Assembly: GCA_001803205.1 (NCBI GenBank)
Contig: MHBE01000011.1
Coordinates: 1-64,000, forward strand
DNA length: 64,000 bases
Direction of reading: 5' to 3'
Source: Lentisphaerae bacterium GWF2_38_69
Lineage (GTDB): Bacteria; Verrucomicrobiota; Lentisphaeria; Victivallales; GWF2-38-69
Shown: positions 7,298 to 47,249 of the stretch, piece by piece
How positions within the stretch are numbered: the stretch's first letter is position 1
Layout of the letters: every line of letters starts with the position of its first letter
Program-made: the position numbers and the translations under genes
Notes under the pieces: generated by a model
The model's database searches: none
What the model saw: only the letters and a program-made list of their open reading frames with translations
What the model was told of the DNA's origin: nothing

Positions 7298-9745
7298 ATG
7301 TCAGATGAACTATTTTGGAAACGCAAACTTTTAGCCTATCTCCACGACCCACCGGATAAAGCACTGGATATTTTAAACCATGAAGAAAATGCAAAAACAT
7401 TTCAAAAAGGGGCTGGGTTCACTGAGGAGAGTGAAAGAATTAACCTTCTAAAAGAGGTTAAGAAAGCAGATCATTTTGCTTCATCTGCTGAACGCTTTGT
7501 CTTTCCGAAGGGGAAATGTTCTACACAATTCAATGGGCAAAAAGGTTCGTCTTTTCTACATCCTCTTTCTTCTGCTGAATATCTGACTCCGGAAAACTTT
7601 TCTGTTCAGGCTGGAGAATTACATGGAATACTTCAGAATGCAGTTGGCGGCATAAACACTGAAGATTGGCGCAAAAAGTTTTTTCTTTACTGGAGAAGGT
7701 GGCTTGAGAATTCCAAAACGAATAACAAACAGAACGCCGAACATCTTGCTCTGCTTCCTGCAGATACTAGAATTCCTGATCATTCAATCTGGAATCATAT
7801 TTCGATAACATCAGCCTTAGCAGGATGCATAGAAACTGGAGAAGTAAAACCTGCCATGCTTCTTTTTCAGTTAGGCCCTGTTCAGGATTTCATAGCTCAG
7901 GCTCGTTCCACAAGAGACTTATGGAGCGGAAGCTATCTTCTCTCCTGGCTCATAGCTCATGCGATGAAAGCTGTTACTGACGAAATTGGGCCCGATTCAA
8001 TTATTTTCCCAAGCCTCAGAGGCAATGGTATTTTTGACGCCTTACATAAGGATGAAGTTTATTCAGAACTTTGGAATGATAGGAATGGCAAAGAAATGTC
8101 TACCTGGAAAAGGATGATAGAAGAGAAAGGAGATAAAGAAAAAGAATGGCTTCTTACTCCGACTCTCCCAAACCGTTTTCTTGCGATAGTCTCTGAATCA
8201 AAAGCTGAACAACTTGCGAAGCTTGCAAGTGAAGCGATCCAAGTTGAACTCAAAAATATCGGCAATGCTGTTTGGGAGTGGATAGAGTCAGAAGCTCAAA
8301 AAGCAGAATGCAACGATGTTTCGAATTGGAAGCTTCGCTGGGATTTTCAGATAAAATCGTTCCCTCAAATCTCATGGGCTGTTCAACCCTGGCTTGACCG
8401 TGAAACTTGCCTTCAGGAATTGGCTAATCTTCCTAACCAGGAAATTTACAAGAGATTAAAATATGTGCTTGAATTGGGTGAAAGGGTTTTGCCGTTTGAA
8501 GATCGGGATCAAAGATATTATGAAGATAATGAAAAGACAAAATTCAATAGCTCGGGTATTTTCTGGTCAGCTCATTATGCCCTTGTGGACGCACAACTTG
8601 CCGCTAGAAGGAATACTCGTGATTTCAATTCTTGGGTAACCGATAAAGGAAGCGTCAAAGATTCGCTCTCAGGAAAAGAGGAAATTATAGGAACAGAGGA
8701 ATTCTGGAAACATCTTGTTAAAGAACATCCGAAATTATTTCCCAGTTCTGGACATCGGTACGCTGCAATGAATCTAATTAAAAGACTCTGGTGCAGAAGC
8801 GATAAGGTAGATTATCTTAAAAGAAAACTCGGAATAGAGCCAAATATTCGCTTTGATTCTATTCCTGATGTAGCTGGAGAAAGAGAATATGTAGCTGTTC
8901 TTGCTATGGACGGTGACGAAATGGGCAAGTGGGTTTCAGGTGAGAAGACACCAAAACTTCTCGATCAACTTTCGGAAAAAGCCAAAGTATATCTTAGAGC
9001 CAAAGATAAAAAAGAAGTCCACAGACTTTTGACTCCATCTTATCACTTGCAGTTCAGCGAAGCTCTGGCTAATTTTTCTACATGGATTGCCGGATCAATA
9101 GTTGAGGAGTTTGATGGACAGCTTATCTATTCGGGCGGCGATGATGTGCTTGCAATGCTTCCGGCAGATCAGGCAATTGCCTGCGCTGAAAAATTGCGGA
9201 CTGCTTTCAGAGATGATTTCAATGGCAATAGGGTAACTCCCGGCTCAAAAACTGATGTGTCTATAGGTTTGGCAATTGGACACATACATGCTCCGCTTCA
9301 AATGCTGGTTCGTGAAGCTCAGAAAGCAGAGAAGAGAGCCAAGAATGAGTATAAGAGAAGTGCTCTGGCAATCTCTCTCTACAAGCGTTCAGGCGAGATA
9401 ATACAATGGGGATGCAAATGGGAGTCTGTCGCTATCGAACTTATAAATAAAGTTACTGAATTGTCAAGCGGAGATGAACCTCGGTTATCAGGCCGTTTCC
9501 CCTACGCTTTAGCTCAAATCCTAAAACCTTACAGATTAAAAGGTTCTATTCCTGACATGAAGGAAATTGTCATGAAAGAGTTTGAGCATGTTGTGGAACA
9601 GCAGGGGAGAAACCTGAAAAACGAAAAGGGAGAGTTTTTAGAACTCGGCAGGAAATGGCTTGATCAGACATCAGACAAGCTGGAAGATTTTGCCAATCTG
9701 TTTCTTGTGGAAACCTTTATTAACCGTTTCAAGGGAGAAGCATGA
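7298..9745 (+). CDS. cmr2: Cmr2 (Cas10), type III-B CRISPR large subunit with cyclase motif
   Basis: Large subunit of the type III-B Cmr effector. In this family the Palm domains convert ATP to cyclic oligoadenylate when target RNA is bound. The N-terminus has LLAYLHDPPDKAL (about 11-23), the degenerate HD-type segment usual in Cmr2. LFQLGPVQDFIAQARSTRD (about 188-207) is a strong family signature. The first Palm domain has AVLAMDGDEMGKW and the second has the cyclase motif GGDD at residues 613-616. The length of 815 is normal. An intact GGDD fits the two CARF-domain proteins encoded downstream. It starts the cmr operon and overlaps cmr3 by ATGA. Confidence 0.95.
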   Translation: MSDELFWKRKLLAYLHDPPDKALDILNHEENAKTFQKGAGFTEESERINLLKEVKKADHFASSAERFVFPKGKCSTQFNGQKGSSFLHPLSSAEYLTPENFSVQAGELHGILQNAVGGINTEDWRKKFFLYWRRWLENSKTNNKQNAEHLALLPADTRIPDHSIWNHISITSALAGCIETGEVKPAMLLFQLGPVQDFIAQARSTRDLWSGSYLLSWLIAHAMKAVTDEIGPDSIIFPSLRGNGIFDALHKDEVYSELWNDRNGKEMSTWKRMIEEKGDKEKEWLLTPTLPNRFLAIVSESKAEQLAKLASEAIQVELKNIGNAVWEWIESEAQKAECNDVSNWKLRWDFQIKSFPQISWAVQPWLDRETCLQELANLPNQEIYKRLKYVLELGERVLPFEDRDQRYYEDNEKTKFNSSGIFWSAHYALVDAQLAARRNTRDFNSWVTDKGSVKDSLSGKEEIIGTEEFWKHLVKEHPKLFPSSGHRYAAMNLIKRLWCRSDKVDYLKRKLGIEPNIRFDSIPDVAGEREYVAVLAMDGDEMGKWVSGEKTPKLLDQLSEKAKVYLRAKDKKEVHRLLTPSYHLQFSEALANFSTWIAGSIVEEFDGQLIYSGGDDVLAMLPADQAIACAEKLRTAFRDDFNGNRVTPGSKTDVSIGLAIGHIHAPLQMLVREAQKAEKRAKNEYKRSALAISLYKRSGEIIQWGCKWESVAIELINKVTELSSGDEPRLSGRFPYALAQILKPYRLKGSIPDMKEIVMKEFEHVVEQQGRNLKNEKGEFLELGRKWLDQTSDKLEDFANLFLVETFINRFKGEA

Positions 9746-12113: not shown

Positions 12114-12821
12114 ATGCCTATCCAAACCATAAAAGAAGTAAAAGCTGTTTTAAAGGAGAGCGAACTGAGTTTTTCTCTGCGAATGTCGAAATTTGCCAAA
12201 GTCGGTGAAAAAGATGCTGTTTCCTTTATTTACGAAGCAAAGAAAGTTCATTTTTCCTGCTTCAGCATTCCTTCTTCCTCCAGCTTCGAAATGAAACTCG
12301 GCGGAAGACTTATAGTCAACCACGCTGGCGGCGTCCTCGAAAATTCCGGCCTCTGTATCCACCGCTTTTTCAACTACCCGATGATTCCGGGAAGCGCCCT
12401 CAAAGGCATCGCCGGTCATGCCGCCTGGCTGAAACATCAGGAATGTTCTGACGAACAGGAACAAAGGAAACTCAAGGAACAGATAATCAAAATCTTTGGA
12501 AGTTTCGGAAATGAAACAAAGAGCGAAAACGCTGGAACAATTGCTTTCCTGGCAGCTGTGCCAGCTAAGGACGACTGGAAACTCGTCACAGATGTCCTGA
12601 CTCCGCATGGAGGCAATGACTACACAAACCCCGTCCCGAGTTTCTTTGTTGCCGTAGAAAAAGGAGCTACTTTTAAATTCACACTAAAAAAGACTTCCAG
12701 AGCTGAAGCAGACGATTTGGAACTTGCAGAAAACTGGCTTAAACGAGGCCTGACTGAAAACGGCGCTGGAGCTAAAACCGCCGCCGGCTACGGCTGGTTC
12801 AAGGAGGTCACAAATGGATAG
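12114..12821 (+). CDS. cmr6: Cmr6, type III-B RAMP subunit
   Basis: RAMP protein that caps the 3' end of the crRNA with Cmr1. Family features are RLIVNHAGGVLENSGLCIHR, then PMIPGSALKGIAGHAAW, FGSFGNETKSENAGTIAFL, DVLTPHGGNDYTNPVP and the C-terminal glycine-rich GAGAKTAAGYGWF. It has 235 residues. Bases 12256-12280 carry a weaker copy of the locus hairpin element (TGCT-TC-AGCA flanked by TTCC). It overlaps cmr1 by 8 bases. Confidence 0.92.
   Translation: MPIQTIKEVKAVLKESELSFSLRMSKFAKVGEKDAVSFIYEAKKVHFSCFSIPSSSSFEMKLGGRLIVNHAGGVLENSGLCIHRFFNYPMIPGSALKGIAGHAAWLKHQECSDEQEQRKLKEQIIKIFGSFGNETKSENAGTIAFLAAVPAKDDWKLVTDVLTPHGGNDYTNPVPSFFVAVEKGATFKFTLKKTSRAEADDLELAENWLKRGLTENGAGAKTAAGYGWFKEVTNG
12256..12280 (+). 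repeat. TTCCTG...CATTCC hairpin element, copy b (inside cmr6)
   Basis: The core TGCT-TC-AGCA (12258-12267) has TTCC on the left and TTCC on the right, followed by another TTCC. It shares the frame TTCCTG...CATTCCTTCTTC with copy f at 18140 and differs in the loop. It is weaker than the other copies and could be chance within coding sequence. Confidence 0.35.
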
Positions 12822-13773
12822 AGCAAAAGTTAAGTTCACATTCGTAACTCCCTGCATTACTTCCGGAGCTGATCAAAGAAAAGCAGAACTGCGAATTCCA
12901 TCTATCAGAGGGCAATTAAGATGGTGGATGAGAACTTTGGGTTATGAAGAATCAGTTCATAGTATTTTGGGAGGTATCGATTCTACAGGGAATGCTATTT
13001 CAAGCAGTTTTATTATTAGAGATTGCACTGAAAATAAAATAAAGACGGATGTACTAGAAAGAGATAGAAGCGACTATTTCTTATGGCCAATAAGGAATAA
13101 AGGATACATCTATGAGGATGAAGAAATACATATTGAAATCATCTATAGATATCGAAAAGATGCAAGTGACTTTCCAGATGAAGTTTTAAAGATATTCCTT
13201 CTTTTGGGTTCACTTGGCACAAGAAGCCGTAGGGCTTATGGGAGTATCTATCCAACTTCAGTTGAAATTGATGGAATCTCTTGGGATATACCAAAGGATA
13301 TTGCATCCTTCAAAAAGGAAATTTACGAGATTTTAAAAGGGCTAAACTGCAAAGTCTTATTGCTTTCACAATCTCAACAGAGATGGCAGGATGCTGTTGG
13401 TGTGTGTGCTTCTTTTCTCAAAGAATTCAGATGCGGGAGTACGAGGTATGGTCAGACTCCCAGTAAGTGGGGCAAATATGACCATGACTTAGCCTTTAAA
13501 GGTGATACTATTTATCGCGCTTCAATAGGAATGCCCCTTAAAACGAAATATTACGAAGCAAAAATAAATGACTTTGACAGGCTTGCAAGTCCAGTTCATT
13601 TTAAGGTTATTAAGCTTGGAAATGGCTTTTATCCAATATCAATCATTTTTCCTGACCATGCGCTTAAAGAAGGTTTAAATGTAAGAGTAGGACTAAAAAA
13701 TGTAAAGCTTTCACATGACTTGTTATATGCAATGATGGATGCTGATAATGTTGAAGTCTTATTTGATTCCTGA
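12814..13773 (+). CDS. cmr1: Cmr1, type III-B RAMP subunit
   Basis: Cmr1 family RAMP at the 3' crRNA end of the complex. Recognised by FVTPCITSGADQRKAELRIPSIRGQLRWWMR-type sequence at the N-terminus, of which IRGQLRWWMRTLG is the hallmark, by the LLGSLGTRSRRAYGS glycine/arginine loop, and by ASPVHFKVIKLGNGFYPISI near the C-terminus. It has 319 residues and is the last gene of the six-gene cmr operon. Its final codons and stop run into hairpin element copy c. The gene looks AT-richer than cmr6. Confidence 0.92.
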   Translation: MDRAKVKFTFVTPCITSGADQRKAELRIPSIRGQLRWWMRTLGYEESVHSILGGIDSTGNAISSSFIIRDCTENKIKTDVLERDRSDYFLWPIRNKGYIYEDEEIHIEIIYRYRKDASDFPDEVLKIFLLLGSLGTRSRRAYGSIYPTSVEIDGISWDIPKDIASFKKEIYEILKGLNCKVLLLSQSQQRWQDAVGVCASFLKEFRCGSTRYGQTPSKWGKYDHDLAFKGDTIYRASIGMPLKTKYYEAKINDFDRLASPVHFKVIKLGNGFYPISIIFPDHALKEGLNVRVGLKNVKLSHDLLYAMMDADNVEVLFDS

Positions 13774-34429: not shown

Positions 34430-34460
34430 TTTTTATTCGTTTTAAATTAATAAGCTCACT

Positions 34461-35175
34461 ATGCAAAAAAACATATTTATTTTTATATTAATTTCTGTAT
34501 TAGTATTTGGTGTATATGAAACTAAAACTTAAAGTTTTAATCCAAATAATCTTATTCATGATGATGTTTTTATAAACATCAGTGATATGAGTATTGAAGA
34601 TATTCAAAACTTTCTAGATAAGGAAGAAGGAGTACTTAAAAGTTATTCAGAAAATGGCAAGACTGCAGCGCAGATAATTTATGATGCCTAGAACGGGTTG
34701 GGGAAGGCTGCAGGTTTATCTAATGATTTGACAGTAGAAATAGATACTTCAACATGGACTATCAATCCAAAGGTTCTTTTTATAACTTTGGAAAAAAGTA
34801 AAGTTTAGTTATCCGGAAAGACTATTCTTAATATTCTGTCGATTGGGCTACTGGTTATGGCTGTTCCGACACTGGTACACGAAATGAACAATACAGAGGA
34901 TTCATTAAGCAAGTTGAAAATGTAGCTTGGCAACTTCGTTATAATTATGAGAGAGCTCAAGATTTAGATATGACTGACTACCAAGTTGGCGATATAATCC
35001 ATTTTATCAATACTTATCCTAATCCTTACGGTGCTCCTCTAGAACAAGATGTTAGAATGCATAATAGTGCTACTGCTTCCCTTTATAGATATACACCACA
35101 GGGATACAATGGTGATTGCAATTTTTGGAAGCTTACAATTAATGGTTTGAATAAATCCTTCTTCAACCTTCAATT
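34461..35175 (+). pseudogene. Broken gene for an exported hypothetical protein
   Basis: The frame starting at 34461 opens with a signal-like MQKNIFIFILISVLVFGVY but meets TAA after ETKT, then TAG after QIIYDA and after FITLEKSKV. Later a frameshift leads into WATGYGCSDTGTRNEQYRG, FIKQVENVAWQLRYNYERA, TDYQVGDIIHF and ATASLYRYTPQGYNGDCNFW. These pieces, in this order, are familiar from large secreted or cell-wall hypothetical proteins (NPKVL...TL, YGC, WQLRYNYERA, YTPH-YNGN-NFWKL). At least three stops and one shift make it a pseudogene. Its end overlaps a second broken gene on the other strand. Confidence 0.7.
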
Positions 35176-35465
35176 TGAGTGTCTGACAGTATTCCTAGAG
35201 GTTGCCCATGTCTTGTCATAAATGTCCCATTGCTCCGGTACTCCCTGAACATCTCCTCCGAAAATCAGATCTCTCATGTCAAAAACCAGGGCAGGGCGAA
35301 GGTTATTCCAATCTTTGATATCTGATAGCTTTCGGGCGCATATTGGAAGGTTTCTACGAATTGGGCATCACCTTCTATAGCAAAGTTAAAAAATGCTTTG
35401 CCCAACTGTGCCTGTGAGTTGGGTTCTGCTAGTTGTTCTTCAAGGTGACTTTTCTGAACAGGCAA
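35170..35465 (-). pseudogene. Broken gene, unidentified, minus strand
   Basis: HLEEQLAEPNSQAQLGKAFF, then NFAIEGDAQFVETFQYAPES, is followed by a one-base frameshift. The reading then continues as WNNLRPALVFDMRDLIFGGD, VQGVPEQWDIYDKTWATSR and a stop at 35170. The composition looks like a real protein (balanced, folded), but no family is recognised. The N-terminus is not clear. The stretch 35466-35566 shows no gene. Confidence 0.5.
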
Positions 35466-35566
35466 AATTTTATTAATTATATCTTCACTCTTGAGTAAGA
35501 TTTTGAAGTTTGTATGGAACTATAATTTGAATAATAAGGAAAGAAAGACTTTCAATATCCTAAAAT

Positions 35567-35596
35567 AAAAAGGTCGGTTTTAACACCGACCTTTTT
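35567..35596 (-). terminator. Rho-independent terminator at the end of the envelope operon
   Basis: AAAAAGGTCGGT, loop TTTAAC, ACCGACCTTTTT is a perfect 12-bp stem with A and T runs, so it can work in both directions. On the minus strand it lies 22 bases after the stop of the last DUF11-type gene. It also faces the decayed zone. Confidence 0.9.
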
Positions 35597-35617
35597 ATAG
35601 TTGATTTTTTTGAAAGT

Positions 35618-37087
35618 TTATTCTTTATAGAATGTGGTTGATTCATTTCTTGATACAGGGCGTTCAAGCTGGTCGCAAATAACGCTGACAGTGAATCTGG
35701 TATCTCCCGGTTTTACTGCTTTTATAAATGCATGAAGAGTAATTGTCTGATTGACGCCCAAGGATGAAATTGGTTTAAATACAAGCTTCATAGGATCAGA
35801 GATTGCTGTATCGACCTGACCGCCTGAAGCTTTAACTGCCTGCATAGAATCTTCAAGCAGACATGTAACTACAAGATTTGTAGCAGCAAGAGACCCCTGG
35901 TTTGAAATTTTGATTGAATAGTCTTCAATCTCGCCAAGAGCTATAGGGTCATTTACATCCGAAAGGTCTATTGATATAGCGGGAATTCCCTGTACATCCG
36001 TGCTGAGCGGTATCCTTTGGGCTTCGGCATTGTTGGCAGAAACTTGGGCTGTAGCCTTAATGAGTCTTATTTCATTACTGATAACTTTTGCCGTGAAAGT
36101 CTTTGTTTCATTCGGAAGAAAATCTTTGAAATCCCATATGACAGCATCATTTTCAAATTTTCCGCCTTCATTGGCTGACACGAATTCAAGCTCGGCAGGC
36201 AGAGCCAGATTAGCTTCAAATTTTCTCGCTTGGCCATTGCCTGTATTTTGGACTTCCAGTTTATATGTGATTGAGTTGCCGACATATCTTACTGCTGGTA
36301 CGCTGGCTTTAAAGTCGAGTTTAGGTTGTTTGGCAACAACTGAATAAACGGCCTTGGCCTTTACGCCATCGGCTGACGCAACTACAAATTCGTTTACATA
36401 TTTTCCTCTCTTCGAGGCTGTAAGTTCAAGAGGGATAACAGTTGATTGTCCGACCTTGAGATCTTCCGCGCTAAGATTAATTTGTTTTTCTCCATTTGCA
36501 GTGGCAATGCCGTCTGGAAAGTTAACGGGAAGTGTTATTCCGGTAATTGTTGAAGTACCTGTGTTCTTAACAAGCACGCTGACAGGGAAAGTCTCTCCAA
36601 CTAAAACCTCTTCAGGGCCAGTTGCCGAAGCAGCAAGTTCCGGCGAGACGATTTCAGTAAAAACAAGCATGGGCTTCATATTGAAAGAAGCAGTAGAGCT
36701 GCCTGAGTAATTTATCTTTCCAACAGTTGTAGATTTTCCTGTAATAGTGATAATTTCAGTTTGGCCAGGTACCATTATTCCGAGATTCCAGATAAGAACT
36801 CGTCCTCTTTCTTCGGTAGGAGGATTAACTTTGATTACATCGAAATTGCTTGGAAGATTTTCTCTTACTACAGCATCGTCTATTTTGTAGTCTGAATTAT
36901 TAGTTACTTTTAGAGTATAAATATATTCAGCATTGAGTTTGGTGCTTTGTGGAACCTCTCTTGCTATGGTCAATTTAGGCTGTTCTATTTTAACGATAGG
37001 AGCCGGAGCTTTTTTAGTGGCGCAGCCGCTTATAACAATAGCTGAAGCCAGTAATGCCGAAGAAACAAATTTATTTGTAAGTTTCAT
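35618..37087 (-). CDS. DUF11/CARDB-type repeat lipoprotein, paralogue 1
   Basis: 489 residues. The lipoprotein signal ALLASAIVISGCATKKAP (lipobox ISGC) is followed by four to five beta-sandwich units of the DUF11/CARDB kind. Each has the pattern YTLKVTNNSDYKIDDAVVRE, LPSNFDVI...PGQTEIITITGK (conserved N-x-G, GQ and P-E-L words). SLAATNLVVTCLLEDSMQAVKASGG is shared almost word for word with the next gene upstream. It is probably anchored in the outer membrane, as in OmcB-like surface or envelope proteins. It is the last gene before the terminator. The ligand is unknown. Confidence 0.85.
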   Translation of the reverse strand: MKLTNKFVSSALLASAIVISGCATKKAPAPIVKIEQPKLTIAREVPQSTKLNAEYIYTLKVTNNSDYKIDDAVVRENLPSNFDVIKVNPPTEERGRVLIWNLGIMVPGQTEIITITGKSTTVGKINYSGSSTASFNMKPMLVFTEIVSPELAASATGPEEVLVGETFPVSVLVKNTGTSTITGITLPVNFPDGIATANGEKQINLSAEDLKVGQSTVIPLELTASKRGKYVNEFVVASADGVKAKAVYSVVAKQPKLDFKASVPAVRYVGNSITYKLEVQNTGNGQARKFEANLALPAELEFVSANEGGKFENDAVIWDFKDFLPNETKTFTAKVISNEIRLIKATAQVSANNAEAQRIPLSTDVQGIPAISIDLSDVNDPIALGEIEDYSIKISNQGSLAATNLVVTCLLEDSMQAVKASGGQVDTAISDPMKLVFKPISSLGVNQTITLHAFIKAVKPGDTRFTVSVICDQLERPVSRNESTTFYKE

Positions 37088-37136
37088 AATATCGTATTTA
37101 CCTTATGCTTTAAAAGTTCATGAATATAATAATATC

Positions 37137-38663
37137 TTATTCATAGAAATTGGTTGATTGTTCAATATGAACAGGACGCTCCAGTTGGTCGCTGGTGACA
37201 TCAACGCTGAATCTGACATCGCCTGTTTTTATTGCTTTGACAGTGACATACCATTTAGCTTCAGACTGAGGTTCGAGAACCGAGAGAGGTTCAAATATCA
37301 CGCTGTCTCCATCGTAAAGAGCGCCTTTGGTAGCGCCTTCGGCCTTCACAAACTGCATAGAGTCTTCCAGTGTGCATTTTACTTTTATTTTTGTAGCAGG
37401 TAGCGAACCTTGATTAGTCATCGTTATTGTGTAAATAGTTTCACTTCCGAGAGATACTGGGTCTGGATCATCAATCACACTACCGAGGAGGCCAGGGATG
37501 CCGGCAACATCAGTTATCAAAGTGGTTTTTTGTATATTCTGACCTAGGGTTTCTGCTGAAACAAGAGTATTTACAACCATAATTCTCTTAGGCATAGCGC
37601 TGGCTGTCAGGTTTATAGTAGCATCAGGAAGAAGAGAAGGAATTGTCCAGGTGGCAAGTTGTCCTGCCTTGCTTGAAAATCCGTTTTCATTTACTGCAGC
37701 TAGTTCTACTCCATCAGGAAGTTCAAGTTTTACGACAATGTTTTTAGTTACGGCATCTCCATTATTTCTTACGCTTACTTTGTAAGGAATGATCCTTCCT
37801 ACAAATCTTTTTGAAGGAGCTGAAGCTGCAAGAACAATACTTGGTTTTGTGGACTTGAGTTCCATTTTTGCGTTTGTGGAAATTCCATCATCTGCAGTGG
37901 CATTGAAGGTTGTGCTGTAGAGACCAGGTTTGTCTGTCTTCATATTTACAGTGATATCTCTGCTCTGCCCCGGAGCTATATCCCCGACGCTCATGCTGAG
38001 TCTGCTTTTTCCTTCAGATGTGAGAAGTCCATCCGGAAGCTGCTTAATGATTTTTACATTTGTAAGGACTCCTGTGCCGGGATTTCTGAAAGTCATATCA
38101 ACAGGGAATTCTTCAGATACTACTACAACTTTAGGGTTTGTTAATGCGAAAGTCAGGTCAGCGCGGACTGCGTCTGTAACATGTTCAGGGGCATTGCTGG
38201 CAAAAGAAAGTTCGGTGTTTTCAATATATTTCAATGTGCCTGGTGTGGATACTTTGCCTGTTACTACAATTGGAGTTACAGTTCCAGGAGCAAGGTTCTT
38301 TAGAATCCATGTAAGATGGTTGCCGTCAATAACTGCTTTAGGATTGGAGTTTACGAGAGTAAAATTGGCAGGTATCTGTTGTTTAAGCATTGCTTCAGCA
38401 ATAGTAAAATCTGATCTATTGGATATATCAATTGTACATTCGAAAATCTCACTTACCTTGACTGTTTTTGGAGTCTTCTGCTCAATTAGTATCTTAGCCG
38501 AAGAAGGCTCTGATACTTCAGGGAAAGCCTGCCATGAGTAATTTACTGTCTCGACAGTATTAATTGGCGTAACAGTTTGAGGTTTGGGTGCTTCTTTTGT
38601 GAAGACGCAGCCTGCAAATATGCTAAGTGAGGCTGCCAATAGAACCAGACGAAATCTTCTCAT
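37137..38663 (-). CDS. DUF11/CARDB-type repeat lipoprotein, paralogue 2
   Basis: 508 residues. The lipoprotein signal VLLAASLSIFAGCVFTKEAP has lipobox FAGC. The repeat units and their order match paralogue 1, for example SLPATKIKVKCTLEDSMQFV and VRFSVDVTSDQLERPVH. Spacing to the next gene is 49 bases. The two proteins arose by duplication and diverged considerably, so different partners or a heteromeric assembly are possible. The C-terminus ends STNFYE in this paralogue and STTFYKE in the other. Confidence 0.85.
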   Translation of the reverse strand: MRRFRLVLLAASLSIFAGCVFTKEAPKPQTVTPINTVETVNYSWQAFPEVSEPSSAKILIEQKTPKTVKVSEIFECTIDISNRSDFTIAEAMLKQQIPANFTLVNSNPKAVIDGNHLTWILKNLAPGTVTPIVVTGKVSTPGTLKYIENTELSFASNAPEHVTDAVRADLTFALTNPKVVVVSEEFPVDMTFRNPGTGVLTNVKIIKQLPDGLLTSEGKSRLSMSVGDIAPGQSRDITVNMKTDKPGLYSTTFNATADDGISTNAKMELKSTKPSIVLAASAPSKRFVGRIIPYKVSVRNNGDAVTKNIVVKLELPDGVELAAVNENGFSSKAGQLATWTIPSLLPDATINLTASAMPKRIMVVNTLVSAETLGQNIQKTTLITDVAGIPGLLGSVIDDPDPVSLGSETIYTITMTNQGSLPATKIKVKCTLEDSMQFVKAEGATKGALYDGDSVIFEPLSVLEPQSEAKWYVTVKAIKTGDVRFSVDVTSDQLERPVHIEQSTNFYE

Positions 38664-38754
38664 GATTCCCTTGCTCCTTTTTTGTTTTTTAGGTTTTGAT
38701 TATATTTGTGAATCATATTAAAAATTGTGATTATGATTATAAACCAATTTCGAG

Positions 38755-39648
38755 TTATTTCATTAGTATTCCATTATCGAATATTTTTGAACTTTTGACT
38801 CTTCCTGATTCATAATATTGAATTACTTGTCCATTCAAATTATCGTTAACAAAATTTCCTTTCATCATAAGTTTGCCATTTTCGTGGTACTCTTCTATTT
38901 GTCCATTTCTTATACCATCTTTGAAATTGACAATTGTTTGCAATTGACCTGATTCATAAAATGTTTTTTGAGCGCCTTCAATCTTTCCATCATGATAATT
39001 AAGCAGGGCTTTTGTCTTTCCTGATTTATAAAACAGCTCAGTTACTCCATTCTTTTTGCCATCATTGTATTTTGAAGTGCCGGAAAGATTGCCGGTAAGA
39101 TCATAGAGTTTGCTTATTCCATTTTCTTTGCCATTTGAGAAAGAGCCCTCTCTTTTTAGTTTTCCAGAGTCAAAGTAAAATTTGCAGCTTCCGCTCAGGT
39201 TCCCGTTTTTTGCAGCGAGAGTAGACTTTAATACGCCTGAATCATAGTATTCATTGTAGAGTCCATCCTGAAGTTTTCCGTTATCAACTACAAAAGCATC
39301 ATTTGAATCCCAATGGCCTGTAGCGATCACTTCATTATTTTTTTTGAAAGTGTAAACATAACCATCATTATCCTCCCATTTCCTTGTGTAAACCAGATCT
39401 GAAGGTTCGTAAAATAAATTTCCATTGTCATCCAAAACTTTTGCGATTTTATAGATGAAAACAGATCTGTTTTTTCCATCGAGTTTGTAGAGAAAGGAGT
39501 CACCGATTTTCCTTATTCCTGAAACATTTTGAAGCTCTTTGCCATCTTTGAAGTAGATTGAAGCAGCTTTAGTCTGAATGGCCGAGAATGTGAAAATGCC
39601 GAGAATTCCAAAAGTAAATAAAAATAAGAAGTTTCGAGAAAGATTCAT
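38755..39648 (-). CDS. YwqK-like MORN-type repeat protein, exported
   Basis: 297 residues. The signal peptide is LFLFTFGILGIFTFSAIQTKA. The mature protein contains about seven repeats of about 23 residues with the pattern YYDSGVLKSTLAAKNGNLSG and FYESGQLQTIVNFKDGIRNG (Y-x-S-G-x-L, then N-G-x-x-x-G). These are the MORN-variant repeats of the YwqK antitoxin-like family. No toxin gene is next to it, so a toxin-antitoxin role is not supported here. More likely it is an envelope protein in the ExbB/ExbD operon. It lies three bases after the propeller gene. Confidence 0.82.
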   Translation of the reverse strand: MNLSRNFLFLFTFGILGIFTFSAIQTKAASIYFKDGKELQNVSGIRKIGDSFLYKLDGKNRSVFIYKIAKVLDDNGNLFYEPSDLVYTRKWEDNDGYVYTFKKNNEVIATGHWDSNDAFVVDNGKLQDGLYNEYYDSGVLKSTLAAKNGNLSGSCKFYFDSGKLKREGSFSNGKENGISKLYDLTGNLSGTSKYNDGKKNGVTELFYKSGKTKALLNYHDGKIEGAQKTFYESGQLQTIVNFKDGIRNGQIEEYHENGKLMMKGNFVNDNLNGQVIQYYESGRVKSSKIFDNGILMK

Positions 39649-39651
39649 ATA

Positions 39652-42012
39652 TTATTCCTTTATATCCTGGTCTTTTAATGTGTATTTATCAGAGATTTCC
39701 ATTTCTGTATTGGCAGGAAGAGTAAACTGGGCAGTGCTTGTGTAGATAACGCCGCTTAGAGAAAGAAGAGCGAATTTTTTAGTGTAGAATAATGTTCGAA
39801 TATATGTTGAAAGAGGAATATCAGGTCTTGGAACGAGTATAATTTCATTTGTAAGGTCTCTAAATGGAGTAGTATTAGTTCTGGATTTGACTGGGAAGTT
39901 CAGAGTTCTGTTTGACCCGTCGCTGCCTGCTCCAAGGAAACCCAATTCCGGCTGGTTAGTCCTTGTCAGTTTCCCTTTTCCTCTGTCCTGACCTAATGAA
40001 GGCAGATAGGCAGCTGGGTTTCCTGCTGTTTTCCTGTCTCTTCCTCCATCGCCAGTGGTGGAGGCAATTATATTACCCAGCGAACTATCGCCTGTACGAT
40101 CTAAACCTTCATTGTCATAGTCTGAACTCTCTCCTGAGGTGTCCCCAACGCTGCGGCTAAGGCCTTCAATATTTCCAGAACTCTGGTTGTCAGCGCCGAC
40201 GCTTTGAGCATCTTTATCTCCTTTGATATCAGAAGTACTTATAGAGCCGATAGACGGTGATCTTTTTCCTCCAACAATTCCTGCACCGGGCATTTCATCA
40301 GTTACAAAAGTCCGATTGCCTGCTGTTTTTCCCGCGCCGGCGCCTCCGCTTCCTATGCCATCCTGAGCCCCGTCTCCATCAAGATTCTGGTTTTCGCCGA
40401 TTCCCCTGGCTTTTGCCCGTTGTTCCATTTTAAAGTTGATATTGTTATTGAGGGAAATATCGGATATTGACATGCTTCCTCCTCCTGAAGAAGGGGATGC
40501 CTCGTCATTAGTTTGATCTATTGATGCAACGGACTCAGGAGTAGGAGAACTGTTTTCTCCTGCCTGGAAATCTTTTGGTTCCAATATAGACGAAGCCTGC
40601 TGATTGAGTTGAGCTGCAGTAGAGCTATTGTTCTCTTTCGATACAATTGACTGAGAAGTCTGTCTGGGCAGCGAAGCTATTCCTTCTTTGAGAGAAGCTG
40701 CAATACTCTCTTTAGCCAGGTTGCTTATTCCTATGGAGAGTTCGCCCTCATCGCTGTATTCTTCATATATCTGTTCCTTGAGGTATAACGCACTGAGGAT
40801 AAGAAGAATAATAAGGTGAATTATAACTGACGCGAGGAAGCATTTTGCAAGCAGACTCAGATTTGTGTTGCTTAAAAGATATTTTAGAAGAAGGAAAATT
40901 GCTGATAGGGTAAGGATTATCAGTATCAAAAGCAGTATTACTTCTGTATTAATTGCTGAAAAGACTTGTCTGGATTTGCTTTCGTATAGATGAAAGTCCT
41001 TGTAGCTCCTGCTGTTCTTATTTGAACTAAAGAGCATTTTGAAACTCCCCATTCTCATAAAAGGGCTGATCTCATCATATTCTGTGTTTATCGGAGCTTT
41101 GAAATTTATAGGCTGAATATATTTCCCATCCTTCAGCGTGCTTACATAGATATCGTAGCCTCCTAATCCGCCGTATCTGTCAGAACTCAGATAAACTAAA
41201 CTTCCGTCTTCTGACACAGCTATCTTGCCTTCATTTTTCTGTGAATTGAGATCCTGGAGGTTTTCAACAAAGCCGAAAGCCGGCGGGCCTGTGCTAACTA
41301 TCTGGAAGTTCTCAGACATTCGTATAGATCTGTATATGTCGAAGTTTTGTTTTCTATTCTCACTGGCAGTTTGCATGTTATTGGAAGAAGTAGGAATTAT
41401 GCGGTTGGATGAGAAAAAGAGAGCGTCTTTCAATGGAGAAATTTCAGGAAATACCTCATCGTATTGAGTATTTATTTCTCCGCCTAAAATATAAGGGCGG
41501 CTCCATTTGTTATCTTTTGTTAAAATTGAACACCAGATGTCAAAATTGCCTTTTCCGTTTGGTCTGTCAGAACTGAAGAAAAGCAACTTGCCGTCATATG
41601 ATATGTCAGGATTTAGTTCATTAAAAGAAGTATTGATATTCAGCAAGGGGGCTGGTGTCGTCCATTTATCGTCAATATTTTTTGATATAAAAAGGTCATA
41701 ATTATTTTCATCAAAGAGATGAGAAAATATCAGAGTAGAACCGTCAGTGCTTATAGTGCTGTCATAATTATTTGAAATTTCATTAAACTTTCCAGGAAGT
41801 TTTGCAGGAGCTTCCCAAAGTATGGAACTAGGCCTTTTTTCGAAAGCCATTTGATTAATATTTCCTCCGAAGTATAGACGCAGAAAGCCTATTTCAGGCA
41901 TTACGCCAATAAGGCTAATTATGATGAAAATCAATACGAATAAGCCAAGGTTCTTCAGCCACCGGGGAAGAGTTCCCTGAGAATTATTGTTGTTTTCTGA
42001 AGAATTATTCAT
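39652..42012 (-). CDS. Membrane beta-propeller (PD40) protein with linker and C-terminal domain
   Basis: 786 residues. A single N-terminal helix (about 17-37, LGLFVLIFIIISLIGVM) is followed by a periplasmic PD40/TolB-like propeller of about five blades, visible as LLFFSSDRPNGKGNFDIW, LVYLSSDRYGGLGGYDIYVS, DALFFSSNR and MLFSSNKNSRSYKDFHLYES. Two more helices lie near 370-425 (ILLILIILTLSAIFLLLKYL). Then comes a long Ser/Gly/Asn-rich linker (about 450-700) and a C-terminal domain of about 100 residues that I do not recognise (ELGFLGAGSDG, ILVPRPDIPLSTYIR). Together with ExbB and ExbD, the propeller suggests a TolB- or TolA-like role. Confidence 0.7.
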   Translation of the reverse strand: MNNSSENNNNSQGTLPRWLKNLGLFVLIFIIISLIGVMPEIGFLRLYFGGNINQMAFEKRPSSILWEAPAKLPGKFNEISNNYDSTISTDGSTLIFSHLFDENNYDLFISKNIDDKWTTPAPLLNINTSFNELNPDISYDGKLLFFSSDRPNGKGNFDIWCSILTKDNKWSRPYILGGEINTQYDEVFPEISPLKDALFFSSNRIIPTSSNNMQTASENRKQNFDIYRSIRMSENFQIVSTGPPAFGFVENLQDLNSQKNEGKIAVSEDGSLVYLSSDRYGGLGGYDIYVSTLKDGKYIQPINFKAPINTEYDEISPFMRMGSFKMLFSSNKNSRSYKDFHLYESKSRQVFSAINTEVILLLILIILTLSAIFLLLKYLLSNTNLSLLAKCFLASVIIHLIILLILSALYLKEQIYEEYSDEGELSIGISNLAKESIAASLKEGIASLPRQTSQSIVSKENNSSTAAQLNQQASSILEPKDFQAGENSSPTPESVASIDQTNDEASPSSGGGSMSISDISLNNNINFKMEQRAKARGIGENQNLDGDGAQDGIGSGGAGAGKTAGNRTFVTDEMPGAGIVGGKRSPSIGSISTSDIKGDKDAQSVGADNQSSGNIEGLSRSVGDTSGESSDYDNEGLDRTGDSSLGNIIASTTGDGGRDRKTAGNPAAYLPSLGQDRGKGKLTRTNQPELGFLGAGSDGSNRTLNFPVKSRTNTTPFRDLTNEIILVPRPDIPLSTYIRTLFYTKKFALLSLSGVIYTSTAQFTLPANTEMEISDKYTLKDQDIKE

Positions 42013-42025
42013 TATTAACGGTTAA

Positions 42026-42442
42026 TCAGTTTGTTGTATTAGTCAGATACGCGATATTGGCATCCCTTATGCCGCTCTTTTTACAGACGGCAATCGCGGC
42101 GGCTACCTGTCCATGCAGAGCCATTTGATCACCACGAATGAGAACTTTCTGATTAGGGTTGTCTTTCAGTAATCTTGAAAGTTCTACCTGGATATTTTGC
42201 AGATTCATGGTCTTATCGGCAAGGAGGTAAGAGCCGTCTCTGCGCACATTTATAATCAAAGGCTGGACTGTGGAACTTAGTGAAGCATCAGTAGAAGGCA
42301 GTGTGACTGCCAGATCTCTCTCAATTTCATTGAAGGACATTGTAACCATCAGGAAGATAATAAGAATAAAGAAACTGTCAATAAGGGGCGTCAGGTTTAT
42401 CGGATTTGGTATCTCTTCATCCCTGTTTAAACGGATTCTCAT
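42026..42442 (-). CDS. ExbD/TolR-family proton channel stator
   Basis: 138 residues. A short cytoplasmic N-terminus, then one helix, INLTPLIDSFFILIIFLMV, whose Asp is the proton-carrying residue of ExbD/TolR. A periplasmic ferredoxin-like domain with LIINVRRDGSYLLADKTM and VLIRGDQMALHGQVAAAI follows. It is an ExbB partner and acts in the inner membrane to couple proton flow to envelope work. The spacing is 13 bases to the propeller gene and 17 to the ExbB gene. Confidence 0.92.
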   Translation of the reverse strand: MRIRLNRDEEIPNPINLTPLIDSFFILIIFLMVTMSFNEIERDLAVTLPSTDASLSSTVQPLIINVRRDGSYLLADKTMNLQNIQVELSRLLKDNPNQKVLIRGDQMALHGQVAAAIAVCKKSGIRDANIAYLTNTTN

Positions 42443-42459
42443 GACATTCTCCGGATTAG

Positions 42460-43200
42460 TTATTTTTTAGTTACATGGATGAACTCATCCAGGAAAGCGT
42501 TACATTCGTCTTCTATTTTGTCTGAACACTTGTCCATTCTGTCTGCCAGGTAATAGTAAACGATAAGTACTGGAATAGCTACGATAAGTCCTGTAGCTGT
42601 AGTTACCATTGCTTCATAGATACCGCTTGCAAGCCTTGCTGCTTTTCCGTATTGTTCTACGGATGCCACATTCTGGAAAGCATTTATCATTCCAATAATA
42701 GTTCCGAGAAGTCCCAGGAGAGGGGAAATTGCACCGATATGCAAAAGCGGTCTCAAGGATCTTTTGTATTTATATACGAATCTCGAAGCATTGTCTTCAA
42801 TGATTTTTTCAGCCAGATCTCTATCATTTGTTTTCTGCCATTTTGAAAGTCCGGATTGAACGATTTGAGCAATGGTTGTTTTGCTTTTCGAACATTTGAG
42901 AAGGATGCTGGACAAATCTTTATCCTTGCCGTTTTCTGTAATATTCAGGAAGAAATTTTTCGGAGCTATTTTTTTTGGTGAAAGCGTTATCCATCTTTCA
43001 ATAGCTACAGCAAGAGCGATAAGAGAACATATTCCCAGCGGTATCATTACCGGTCCGCCTTTGAGCATTAGAGAAAAAATAGTTTCCTGGGGATTTGCGA
43101 TTGATGTGCTTGCCTGGATTGCGGCAAAAATCATGGTGCAGCCAAAGTAGCCTATGCAGATAGCAAACAGAGTTAATGTGCGTTTCTCAAACACTTTCAT
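42460..43200 (-). CDS. ExbB/TolQ/MotA-family proton channel protein
   Basis: 246 residues with an N-terminal helix, then a pair of helices around the conserved LHIGAISPLLGLLGTIIGMINAFQ motif and ATGLIVAIPVLIVYYYLADRM. Family members form a pentameric channel with ExbD. Together with the upstream giant TPR protein and the downstream propeller protein this gives the same gene logic as Tol-Pal or Ton, but with other partners. No tonB or tolA is seen nearby. Confidence 0.92.
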   Translation of the reverse strand: MKVFEKRTLTLFAICIGYFGCTMIFAAIQASTSIANPQETIFSLMLKGGPVMIPLGICSLIALAVAIERWITLSPKKIAPKNFFLNITENGKDKDLSSILLKCSKSKTTIAQIVQSGLSKWQKTNDRDLAEKIIEDNASRFVYKYKRSLRPLLHIGAISPLLGLLGTIIGMINAFQNVASVEQYGKAARLASGIYEAMVTTATGLIVAIPVLIVYYYLADRMDKCSDKIEDECNAFLDEFIHVTKK

Positions 43201-43242
43201 TTATTACCTCTTCAATTATTTATATTATTTTTAAAAAATTAA

Positions 43243-46200
43243 TTAATCAAAAGCTTTCTCTTCTCTTGAAGAGAGAATATCCGATGCAATAGATGCTTCT
43301 TCCGTCCCTTTGTAGTCGGTTATTACTTTTTTGAGAATCTGATTGGCTTCCTTATCCTTATTCTGGAGCATCAATACTCTGGCTGTTTCGAGCTGAGCTT
43401 TTGATATCCATTCAGGGAAGTCGTAATCTGTTTCGACTTTGATAAAAGCGATAATGGCTTTGTCAAATTCTTTCATGGAGAAATAGCATTCACCGATTTG
43501 GAACTGACTACGGGCTGCGATACTGCTATTCTGTCTTGTGTTGACTACCGAACTGTACTGTTCTATTGCCTCCTGGTATCTTTTTAAGTTTTCCAGTGTC
43601 CAACCTGACCACATCTTGGCTCTGTAGTAGAACTTGCTTTTTGGGAATGAGGTAATAAATGTCTTGAAGGAATTGTTTGCGTCAATCCATCTGTCTGTGA
43701 GTGTCTGAGTTTCTCCAAGTCTGAGAAGTATCTGTTCTTTGATATTGTCGCTGCTTGTGCTTGAACTCTTTTCCCATGCTTTTTTGAAGTCACTGTAGGC
43801 AGCTTCATATTCTTTTTCTGAAAGTCTCTTTTCTCCTGCCTGATAAGCTGCTACCGGAAGGAAACTGCTGTTTGGAAATTCATACATGAGGTTTTCAAAA
43901 ACTTTCATGGCTTCATATTGCTGATTCTTTTCCATGTAGCACCAGGCTTTGCGATAAAGAATTTTTTCCTTGAGCTCAGGGTTGATTTTTCCTGAAAGAA
44001 GTTTATTCAAAATATCCAGAGACCTATCATAGCTTTTTGTATCGTATTCAAGTTCTGCCAATTCAAACATTATTGCTTGTTTTTTATTGTCTGATTTTTC
44101 GGCATCGACATATTTTTCGTAGTACTTCTTTGCCTGATCAGCATCTTTCATTGTTCTGGCATTCCAGGCCATTTCATAAAGAGCCTCTCCCCGTAGTTTT
44201 GAATTGGGGTAATCTTTTAGGAATTTTTCAAACAGAGTATTTGATTCTTTTGCGTCACCTTTTCTGGCAACTGCTAAAGCATAATAGAAAGAAGCTTCAT
44301 CGAGGTTGGATTTATAATTCATGATAAAAATCTTCAGCTCATCTTCAGCTTCTTTATTTTTCCCCTGTTTTATCAAAACAATAGCTTTCTGGAATTGTGA
44401 GTCAGACGCAAGACTATGGTCGGGATGGTCTTTTACTAATGAATCGAAGCTATGGAAAGCTTTGTCATAGTCCTGATTTCCAAGAGCCACCCATCCAAGA
44501 TAATACTTAGCATAAGGCGCAAACTTGCTTTGCTTGTAGTTTTCTGTAATTGTTTCCAGATTGGTTTGAGCTTTGGAATAATCATTTACAGAATAATAGT
44601 ATTTTCCAAGTTCCATATATGCCTGATCCAGATAGAAACTGTCAGGATAGTTTTTGATAAGAGTTTCGAGGTAAGGAACAGCTGCCTTATTATTGTTTGT
44701 CTCAGCATACGATAATGCTGAATAAATTAATGAAGCATCAAGATTTTTATCTTTAGGATGCTGAGCCATAAATTCTTTGAAAAATAATATTGCTTTTTCA
44801 TAGTTTTTTATTTTGAAAGCGCAATAACCGGCAAGGTAGTAAAGCTGTTCAAAGAATGGATCACCAGGCGGTTCATTTAGAATAACTGAGAGATTTTCGA
44901 GTGCCTGCTTATAGTCTTTCTGTTTAATATAAATTTCCGCTAGTCTGTAGGCGGCTTCATTCGTATATTTCTGTCTTGAACCATCAAATGAAACAAATTT
45001 CTGATATATTATTCTGGATGCTTCATATTTTTCTAGAAAATAAAGGTTTTCAGCTTTGAGAAACATGACATCAGAGATATGTGAATTATTTTTAAATTTG
45101 TCAAGAAATTCATCACAGGATTTTAAGCTTTCACTGAAGGACTTCTTTCTGTTCTGAGCAAACGCTATTAGCCTTATTGAATCGGCAGCGAATTTTCCTT
45201 CTTTGAAATAAGCAAGAGCTTTATTAAAGATTATAATTGCCTGATCATATTTATTTTGAAGCATTAAGACTTCGCCATAACTAAAAAGCAGTGAAGGATA
45301 ATTTTGGTTTGATGTAAATTTGTCCATACCGTTTTTCAGAATGCCTTCAGATTTATCAAGCTGGTTTTGCCTTGTATATGTTCTAGCCAGCCATATTGTG
45401 GCTTTGCACTCTATTTTGCTGCTAGTTGAGAGTTTAGTAAAGACAGCTTCAGCTTTGCTGTAGTTTTTCTGGTTTAGGTAGCATCTTCCCAGATATAAGT
45501 TTGCTTCGTCAAAAAGAGTGTTGGACGGATAACTTATAATCAAGTTTGAAAATTGCTGAGAAGCCTTGTCGTAGGCTTTTTCGTTATAATATATAGTTCC
45601 CAGTCTGAATAAAGCACTGCAGGCCAGCTCGCTTTTTTTAAATTCAGTTATTACGGTATTATAGCTTTTCTTTGCAGGGGTAATATCTCCGAGTTTGAAT
45701 TGATTGTCTGCTAAAAGCAAATAAGCCTGAGGAAGGAATTGGGAGTCCTTGCTAGCAAAAATGTTGTCCAGGCATACAATGGATTCCTTATACTGTTTAA
45801 GCTCATAATAGGAAAGAGCGCTGAGGAGTTTTGTTCTGTTGGCAAACTCTGTTTTAGGTGCTAGTCTGATAAGTTCTTCTGTATATGTGATGACTCTGTT
45901 CCATTTATTTTGCTGATACAATGATTCAATCAGGCCGGCATAGCTTCTTTCCAACGGATCAAGATCATTAACTGTAGCCATTGAGATATTTGGGGTTTCT
46001 GAATGTTTCTGAGCTATACCTGGAAGTTCCATAAAGAGCCTTTCCTTACCATGCTCTACGCACCAGCGGAAAGCTATTTCAGCCTCTGCAGGTCTCCCAG
46101 CTTTTAGAAGGCACTCTCCTAACAAATTATGAACCAGTTGCTGTTGTGGAGCTTTATCATTATCAGCTAATTCAGAAAATAAAGCTTCTGCTTTTTCAAG

Positions 46201-46452
46201 TTGATTTAATGCATAATAGGAAAGAGCCAAACCCAGTTTGGCAGATAATATTTTCGGACTGTCGGGATACAGTTCAATAAAGGAAGTGTAGTCATTAATG
46301 GCGAGCTTATAAAGCCCCTTATTGTAGAGGGCGTTAGCTATATAATATTTTTCAAGAGTTCTGTCTTCTTCAGCATAAGTATATGATATAAAAACATTAG
46401 AGTACAGGATGATCGCAAGAACCGAAAAAATCACCAGTATTGATTTTTGCAT
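43243..46452 (-). CDS. Giant exported tetratricopeptide-repeat protein
   Basis: About 1069 residues from the ATG at 46452, which follows AGGAGAG by about 11 bases. An upstream ATG at 46503 would add 17 residues ahead of the signal peptide. The signal MQKSILVIFSVLAIILYSN is followed by TPR-type helix pairs through the whole length, for example DEANLYLGRCYLNQKNYSKA, ALYEMAWNARTMKDADQAKKYY and AKYYLGWVALGNQDYDKAFH. I would expect about 25-30 repeats. Similar proteins (YbgF/CpoB-like, GldN/TolA-coupled) are scaffolds in the periplasm. It leads the seven-gene run and probably works as a scaffold for the ExbB/ExbD system. Confidence 0.85.
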   Translation of the reverse strand: MQKSILVIFSVLAIILYSNVFISYTYAEEDRTLEKYYIANALYNKGLYKLAINDYTSFIELYPDSPKILSAKLGLALSYYALNQLEKAEALFSELADNDKAPQQQLVHNLLGECLLKAGRPAEAEIAFRWCVEHGKERLFMELPGIAQKHSETPNISMATVNDLDPLERSYAGLIESLYQQNKWNRVITYTEELIRLAPKTEFANRTKLLSALSYYELKQYKESIVCLDNIFASKDSQFLPQAYLLLADNQFKLGDITPAKKSYNTVITEFKKSELACSALFRLGTIYYNEKAYDKASQQFSNLIISYPSNTLFDEANLYLGRCYLNQKNYSKAEAVFTKLSTSSKIECKATIWLARTYTRQNQLDKSEGILKNGMDKFTSNQNYPSLLFSYGEVLMLQNKYDQAIIIFNKALAYFKEGKFAADSIRLIAFAQNRKKSFSESLKSCDEFLDKFKNNSHISDVMFLKAENLYFLEKYEASRIIYQKFVSFDGSRQKYTNEAAYRLAEIYIKQKDYKQALENLSVILNEPPGDPFFEQLYYLAGYCAFKIKNYEKAILFFKEFMAQHPKDKNLDASLIYSALSYAETNNNKAAVPYLETLIKNYPDSFYLDQAYMELGKYYYSVNDYSKAQTNLETITENYKQSKFAPYAKYYLGWVALGNQDYDKAFHSFDSLVKDHPDHSLASDSQFQKAIVLIKQGKNKEAEDELKIFIMNYKSNLDEASFYYALAVARKGDAKESNTLFEKFLKDYPNSKLRGEALYEMAWNARTMKDADQAKKYYEKYVDAEKSDNKKQAIMFELAELEYDTKSYDRSLDILNKLLSGKINPELKEKILYRKAWCYMEKNQQYEAMKVFENLMYEFPNSSFLPVAAYQAGEKRLSEKEYEAAYSDFKKAWEKSSSTSSDNIKEQILLRLGETQTLTDRWIDANNSFKTFITSFPKSKFYYRAKMWSGWTLENLKRYQEAIEQYSSVVNTRQNSSIAARSQFQIGECYFSMKEFDKAIIAFIKVETDYDFPEWISKAQLETARVLMLQNKDKEANQILKKVITDYKGTEEASIASDILSSREEKAFD

Positions 46453-46565: not shown

Positions 46566-47249
46566 TCAGTGTTTTCTTTGAAGTAGATTATTTAACAATA
46601 GATTAGCTATTTTAAAAGAGTCTGCAACAGGGCTGAAATTAGAGAGTTTACGGCTTTTATCGGAATAATTGACAGAAATTGGTATATCTTTTATCTGGAT
46701 TCCAACCATTGCAGCTTTTAGAAGTATTTCCATTTCAAAATCATATCTGTCTTTAGTGAATGAAATATTACAAAGATTTTTAAGGGGATAAACCCTGAAG
46801 CCGCTCTGTGTATCGGCAATGTTGATACCAGTTACTATCTTAAATCCAAGATTAGAGAACATTCTTCCCATTGTGCTTTTGTAAGGAATTTTTCCATGTG
46901 AAAAATCCCGGCATCCAATTGTTATTGAATCAGGAGAAGATTTCACAGCTTCAACAAATTTTCCTATCTCTTCAGGGTTGTGCTGTCCATCCGCGTCAAT
47001 CGTTATAATATGAGTATAGTTTTCCTTCGCTGCCATAGCAAAAGCTGTTCTCAGAGCATTCCCTTTTCCTTTGTTTTTTTGAATAGTGAACACTTTAATG
47101 TCATTAAAACTCATCAAAATTCTGTCTGTGCCGTCTGTGCTTCCGTCATTGATGACAAGAACATCCAGTTTATTTCTAAGTACTTTTTGTATAACTTCTC
47201 CGACATTATCGACATTGTTATAAACAGGTATTGCAACAAGTATTTTCAT
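46566..47249 (-). CDS. Family 2 glycosyltransferase (dolichol-phosphate mannosyltransferase-like)
   Basis: 227 residues with a GT-A fold of family 2. It starts MKILVAIPVYNNVDNVGEVI, followed by VLVINDGSTDGTDRIL, IITIDADGQHNPEEI (the DXD-type metal site as DAD) and SGFRVYPLKN. There are no clear transmembrane helices, so it resembles the soluble polyprenyl-phosphate glycosyl synthases. The gene lies 113 bases upstream of the TPR gene on the same strand. The product is unknown. Confidence 0.85.
   Translation of the reverse strand: MKILVAIPVYNNVDNVGEVIQKVLRNKLDVLVINDGSTDGTDRILMSFNDIKVFTIQKNKGKGNALRTAFAMAAKENYTHIITIDADGQHNPEEIGKFVEAVKSSPDSITIGCRDFSHGKIPYKSTMGRMFSNLGFKIVTGINIADTQSGFRVYPLKNLCNISFTKDRYDFEMEILLKAAMVGIQIKDIPISVNYSDKSRKLSNFSPVADSFKIANLLLNNLLQRKH

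Follow-up and report, generated by a model that had tools for sequence, protein, structure and literature searches.

A locus on the minus strand of a 64,000-nucleotide stretch of the genome of Lentisphaerae bacterium GWF2_38_69 (the window; contig MHBE01000011.1, our C11, of an assembly of 3.12 Mb in 66 contigs that is 95% complete) probably encodes a trans-envelope motor of the ExbBD/TolQR kind, driven by the proton motive force (PMF), in which a 786-residue protein (39652..42012) would act as an energy transducer of new architecture. Few routes are known by which the proton energy of the inner membrane reaches the outer membrane, namely TonB, TolA and the recently proposed vWA proteins. An earlier note on this DNA had guessed that the 786-residue protein is the energy transducer, and at the level of sequence comparison the guess is well supported by its histidine motif, its topology, a D-box-like strand, a dedicated clade of ExbB proteins and a conserved gene order.

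Architecture of the 786-residue protein

The gene for this protein (Pfam PD40, 1.2e-10) follows, on the same strand, those for an ExbB/TolQ-family channel subunit (246 residues, 42460..43200; Pfam MotA_ExbB, 3.6e-30) and an ExbD/TolR-family subunit with a proton-binding Asp22 (138 residues, 42026..42442; Pfam ExbD, 5.2e-24). Hydropathy gives exactly three strongly hydrophobic helices, all of which are also found in an AlphaFold2 (AF2) model built with a ten-sequence alignment: the transmembrane (TM) helices TM1 (residues 17-46, 41875..41964), TM2 (residues 356-381, 40870..40947) and TM3 (residues 387-420, 40753..40854), the last being the proposed motor-docking helix. Residues 64-349 (40966..41823) are confidently predicted to form a TolB-like beta-propeller, which would be periplasmic and is modelled with a local confidence (pLDDT) of mostly 80-94; its best Foldseek matches in the PDB are TolB proteins (6pnv, 8.8e-11; 4r40, TolB/Pal). 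A PDB sequence search gave no match. Beyond TM3 there is a disordered Ser/Gly-rich linker of about 240 residues (about 447-688, 39949..40674; pLDDT about 30), with 20% Ser plus Thr and 16% Gly, and then a small C-terminal domain (residues about 690-786, 39655..39945), delimited by alignment and a low-confidence AF2 model. The propeller, the three helices and the long linker described in the earlier note are all present, but the Ser/Gly richness that it named is peculiar to this genome, the linkers of most homologues being richer in Pro and Ala.

The small C-terminal domain is conserved only among Victivallales-type homologues. A TonB_C-like end was considered and rejected, as Pfam found no TonB_C, TonB_2 or TolA C-terminal domain in the 786-residue protein or in six homologues. 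The domain is thus not TonB/TolA-like. As a whole, the 786-residue protein has apparently not been described before, and it occurs in part of the planctomycete-verrucomicrobium group. No vWA domain was matched in the protein either, its end being the small domain or, in relatives, a toroid. In the homologues L051-L053, L058, L059, L061 and L084, a helical domain of about 330 residues replaces the small domain; the modelled domain of L084 resembles AprG and squalene-hopene cyclases (1.5e-5 and 6.2e-5), and Pfam gave weak SQHop_cyclase/Prenyltrans signals, below the cut-off, for C-termini of this type. These homologues would thus end in a squalene-cyclase/AprG-like alpha-alpha toroid. Because the C-terminal domain is swapped in this way in distant relatives, the propeller and TM core seems to serve as a base to which different ends can be attached.

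Three TM helices were found in all 15 complete homologues (the window protein counted), and in each of them the loop between TM2 and TM3 is net positive. By the positive-inside rule, TM3 would run from the inside to the outside, as the helix of TonB does, and the propeller and the tail would both be periplasmic.

The SHLS motif of E. coli TonB and TolA reads Ser-x3-His-x6-Leu-x3-Ser; its Ser and His contact Ser34 and Trp38 of ExbB, and the His is essential (PMC12215075). By this definition, TM3 carries a TonB/TolA-type signature, Ser395-x3-His399 (40816..40830), and S/A-x3-H is present in TM3 of 16 out of 16 homologues, with an invariant His and, four positions before it, Ser in 11 and Ala in 5. 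The complete S-x3-H-x6-L-x3-S occurs only in the homologue L059, and all others have it in part. The D-box of TonB lies within residues 43-54 and is captured by ExbD as a beta strand (PMC10907165). A candidate strand of this kind, LSIGISN, lies at residues 425-431 (40720..40740), at +26 from His399; the D-box of E. coli TonB has its first hydrophobic residue 25 positions after His20. In 14 of the 16 homologues, with 2.4 expected by shuffling, hydrophobic and polar residues alternate in a strand-like pattern, chosen post hoc, at +24 to +27 after the His. In the E. coli sequences that served as yardsticks for the motif and residue comparisons, the residues match those given in the papers, both in identity and in numbering.

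Conservation of the motor genes with the propeller protein

Of the 60 genomes of the order that were sampled, 7, the host's among them, have the propeller protein. It also occurs in another family of the class (G075) and in four remoter genomes of the phylum (L050-L053), as well as in metagenome-assembled genomes of Opitutae, Phycisphaerales, Tepidisphaeraceae and other Planctomycetes. A related-locus search with the window protein alone found nothing, and most matches of an alignment search based on family f7 were PorE-like propellers of Bacteroidota, which were set aside. No relative was found among the viral contigs searched, and the plasmids searched yielded only Bacteroidota propellers.

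The earlier note had suggested checking gene order in relatives. Besides the window, ExbB, ExbD and the propeller protein are encoded consecutively in all 14 loci whose contigs reach that far (that of L059 ends before ExbB and that of L021 before both motor genes), and in 10 of these 14 a gene for a tetratricopeptide repeat (TPR) protein of about 1050 residues lies directly upstream. The 14 loci are of Victivallales type or come from Opitutae, other Verrucomicrobiota and Planctomycetota, Phycisphaerae included. TPR-ExbB-ExbD-propeller is an old unit, kept in the same order across two phyla.

By Pfam and by the two Thr and the Asp, the window genes have the hallmarks of an ExbB/ExbD (TolQ/TolR) motor, a channel protein of the three-helix family paired with an ExbD, and both score best with TolQ/TolR models. 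The window ExbB keeps the equivalents of Ser34, Thr148, Thr181 and Pro190 of E. coli ExbB. Among the 15 propeller-linked ExbBs, all have the TonB-contacting Ser34 and the proton-path Thr148 and Thr181, and 14 have Pro190; the equivalent of E. coli Asp25 is found in 15 of the 15 linked ExbDs. In a tree of 40 ExbB sequences, the 15 linked ones cluster together (support 91/91, not 'starred'), and the other 25, which come nearly all from the same genomes, stand apart from them. Since the linked ExbBs group together and the three genes are consecutive, the ExbB/ExbD pair looks dedicated to, and inherited with, the propeller protein.

Other motors of the genome and known systems

The host genome has two other motor pairs. 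TolQ/TolR-like genes, which score better with the TolQ/TolR models than the window pair does, are on contig C30, and a third ExbB/ExbD pair is on contig C5, between a TPR gene and a gene for a 276-residue single-TM protein. In the C5 set (L005; 9109-9546, 8273-9103), the ExbD has Asn in place of the proton-binding Asp, and the 276-residue protein has no family match; this set with its 276-residue protein possibly represents another transducer type. A TonB_2/TonB_C (TonB/TolA-like) protein is encoded on C44, not adjacent to any motor genes. The genome thus has three transducer candidates for three motor pairs, and from this count we infer that the window's pair naturally goes with the propeller protein. 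The earlier note had allowed that a tolA/tonB-based set elsewhere might use this pair; the TonB/TolA-type gene was found to have the C30 pair available.

An alternative is that the 786-residue protein serves in the inner membrane as a sensor or regulator and gates this ExbB/ExbD motor, the transducer being encoded elsewhere, for example by the TonB/TolA-like gene on C44. The propeller and the two extra TM helices are indeed unusual for a transducer, and the C44 protein exists, away from motor genes. However, that protein has at its disposal a motor pair with better TolQ/TolR scores, in none of the loci examined does the motor cluster contain a single-TM transducer candidate besides the propeller protein, which it retains, and the His signature and the D-box-like strand are in the TM3 region of the 786-residue protein itself. 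We therefore regard a role as sensor or regulator as unlikely.

The earlier note had also described the locus as a mirror of Tol-Pal. The likeness is a loose one: the propeller does resemble TolB, and Tol-Pal (TolB, CpoB, Pal) likewise combines a TolB-like propeller, a TPR partner and lipoproteins, but Pfam found no Pal lipoprotein with a peptidoglycan-binding OmpA domain in the locus, and TolB is an exported protein with an N-terminal Rossmann-type domain before its propeller, whereas the window propeller is fused to TM helices. One could still imagine a diverged Tol-Pal in which the place of Pal is taken by lipoproteins of the DUF11 family, described below, and that of TolB by the fused propeller; the lipoproteins are of outer-membrane type, the TPR protein scores with the YbgF/CpoB model, and the preference of the motor pair for TolQ/TolR models would fit as well. 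This idea, which we consider quite improbable, is largely refuted by the presence in the same genome of separate genes for TolQR, the TonB/TolA-like protein, a TolB-like protein (C29; TIGR02800, 179 bits, below the model cut-off of 343) and Pal (C63, above the cut-off), and most genomes of the order do without the system of the window. The window operon was accordingly rejected as the Tol-Pal of the host: because it has neither a Pal/OmpA nor a TolA/TonB C-terminal domain, and a scattered Tol-Pal set exists separately, the system is additional to Tol-Pal and not a replacement for it.

With TonB-ExbB-ExbD and TolA-TolQ-TolR, the locus shares motor genes of the 5:2 type, a proposed in-to-out docking helix with a His and a long linker, and its candidate strand stands at the position of the D-box or motor box. 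It differs in that the 786-residue protein has no TonB_C, TonB_2 or TolA end, carries its propeller on the N-terminal side and has its docking helix as the third of three TM helices, unlike the single N-terminal TM anchor of TonB and TolA. A TonB-dependent receptor was rejected as the target, since no Plug domain was found in the host genome (at an assembly completeness of 95%). The closest curated sequence family for the propeller is PorE/CHU_0125, the TPR-propeller-OmpA lipoproteins of Bacteroidota; however, PorE belongs to the lipoproteins and has an OmpA domain, and is not a three-TM inner-membrane protein encoded beside exbBD.

The closest published idea is that of Williams-Jones et al. 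2025 (PMC12204202), who propose that the Planctomycetes-Verrucomicrobia-Chlamydiae (PVC) group has SHLS transducers with a vWA tail, encoded after TPR and tolQ/tolR genes, and who anticipate further undiscovered transducers. The vWA force transducers have in common with the window system a TPR gene upstream of the motor genes, a TM helix with SHLS/His, a disordered linker, a C-terminal domain that is not of TonB/TolA type, and an unknown function. In contrast to them, the 786-residue protein has three TM helices and a fused N-terminal periplasmic propeller but no vWA domain, and the window has one ExbD instead of a heterologous TolR pair, although the order TPR-ExbB-ExbD-transducer matches. 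The locus fits the concept of the vWA transducers but not their family. Propeller-type transducers are not mentioned in the passages of that paper that were read, nor did we find any in the literature searched (subscription papers, preprints and supplements being outside its reach) or by term in a 2026 review.

The seven-gene locus and a possible mechanism

The earlier note had listed seven minus-strand genes with gaps of 42, 17, 13, 3, 91 and 49 bases. All seven open reading frames were recovered in the order TPR, ExbB, ExbD, propeller protein, MORN/YwqK, DUF11 and DUF11, the gaps are exact and Pfam agrees on the identities. The first gene encodes a large exported TPR protein (1069 residues, 43243..46452; TPR Pfam match); its start is the ATG at 46452, behind a GGAG-type Shine-Dalgarno site, although the mechanically called reading frame begins earlier, at a TTG. 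Behind the propeller gene follow an exported MORN/YwqK-repeat protein (297 residues, 38755..39648; Pfam MORN_2, 3.5e-23) and the DUF11 lipoproteins A (508 residues, 37137..38663; lipobox SIFAGC) and B (489 residues, 35618..37087; lipobox VISGC), with Pfam DUF11 scores of 4.7e-33 and 3.7e-32. Read from the sequence, the signal sequences of the two lipoproteins have no Asp at +2 of the lipobox. Based on these signal sequences, the signal peptides of the TPR and MORN proteins and the tail of the propeller protein, everything but ExbB/ExbD and the three helices would be in the periplasm or the outer membrane. The cluster is closed by an intrinsic terminator (35565..35598, minus strand; -21.7 kcal/mol, z = -8.1), a real hairpin as the earlier note held, but with a stem of 14 bp, not 12. 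An Rfam search of the window gave no matches, and promoter-like sites are not more frequent than expected by chance.

As to the surroundings, a glycosyltransferase family 2 gene (46566-47249) on the same strand lies 113 bases upstream of the TPR gene and is not beside the cluster in the relatives examined. Just downstream of the terminator, 34450-35220 appears to be a decayed gene, its reading interrupted by several stops and frame changes. The window also holds a plus-strand type III CRISPR-Cas cluster of Cmr type (Cas10/Cmr2 and a RAMP protein; 7298-9745, 12814-13773 and neighbouring reading frames).

The seven genes are packed here, and a single transcript, as proposed in the earlier note, is plausible; the arrangement is nevertheless local and not conserved, as the set in relatives usually comprises at least two units, TPR-ExbB-ExbD-propeller and DUF11-DUF11-MORN. 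The latter stands as a unit of its own in G026 and, in a divergent arrangement, also in G002; because of this, it looks as though two linked units had merged into the seven-gene run of the window. In family f7 (G008, G015, G021 and G026), TPR, MORN and DUF11 are not beside exbBD, and nearly all are present elsewhere in the genome. A full-length TPR orthologue was found in 7 of 7 genomes with the propeller protein and in 0 of 5 without it (Fisher 0.0013), and the MORN gene in 7 of 7 and 1 of 5, respectively. Among the 60 genomes, the DUF11 pair and the propeller protein each occur in 7, of which 6 are common (P about 1e-6, kinship ignored). The exceptions are G021 (86% complete), which has no DUF11, and G014 (78% complete), which lacks the propeller protein but has DUF11 together with a fragment of MORN. 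Within one family, G001 (96% complete) has none of the parts tested, whereas G000 and G002 have all seven.

Thus, in Victivallales-type relatives the seven genes are co-inherited even when spread over different contigs, and they are kept together by order or by co-occurrence. A chance neighbourhood, in which generic TPR, PD40, MORN and DUF11 genes happen to adjoin an exbBD pair, would draw on the fact that all four domain families are common; we rejected it as extremely improbable, given that the gene order is conserved in two phyla, that the ExbB clade is exclusive and that the genes are inherited together even when unlinked.

The genes, their conservation and co-inheritance, the topology signals and the motifs are what was observed; for motor docking, force transmission, the direction of work, the outer-membrane partner and the biological task, we infer the following scheme. 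ExbB and ExbD would form the inner-membrane motor, and TM1 and TM2 of the transducer would anchor the TolB-like propeller on the periplasmic side. TM3 would dock against the outside of the ExbB ring, with Ser395 and His399 facing the conserved Ser59 of ExbB, and the segment right after TM3 may be captured by the periplasmic domains of ExbD as a D-box-like strand. The disordered linker could then span the periplasm, so that the C-terminal domain would grip a partner located at the outer membrane or close to it. The likeliest partners in this lineage would be the two DUF11 lipoproteins, with the TPR and MORN proteins as periplasmic adaptors. The work is likely to be mechanical: outer-membrane lipoproteins might be moved, released or held, as in Tol-Pal but separately from the Tol-Pal of the host.

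Several observations weigh against assigning the role of transducer to the 786-residue protein. The SHLS motif is partial, Ser being replaced by Ala in 5 of 16 homologues and the later Leu and Ser being mostly missing. The definition of the D-box pattern came only once the sequences were known, it was counted in homologues that are related to one another, and the AF2 monomer has no strand at this segment. The linked ExbBs have Leu, Val or Phe in place of Trp38, although the C5 ExbB of the host likewise has no Trp. No relative of the C-terminal domain can be recognised, and its model is of low confidence. Finally, the DUF11 and MORN genes, which were looked for in lineages other than the toroid-bearing ones, are adjacent in only some of the relatives, and the co-occurrence P values ignore phylogeny.

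The chances seem to us evenly balanced that the locus represents a distinct class of PMF transducers as old as the PVC group. In this class, a single inner-membrane protein would combine a TolB-like propeller with a TonB-like docking helix, the end facing the outer membrane would be modular (the small Victivallales domain or the squalene-cyclase-type toroid), and DUF11 lipoproteins would be the cargo in Victivallales. If true, such a transducer, with its fused propeller, its interchangeable ends and its conservation in two phyla, would constitute an additional transducer class and would hint at how TolB- and TolA-like parts can join in one chain. It would also define a set of genes for an as yet unknown energy-driven process of the PVC envelope.

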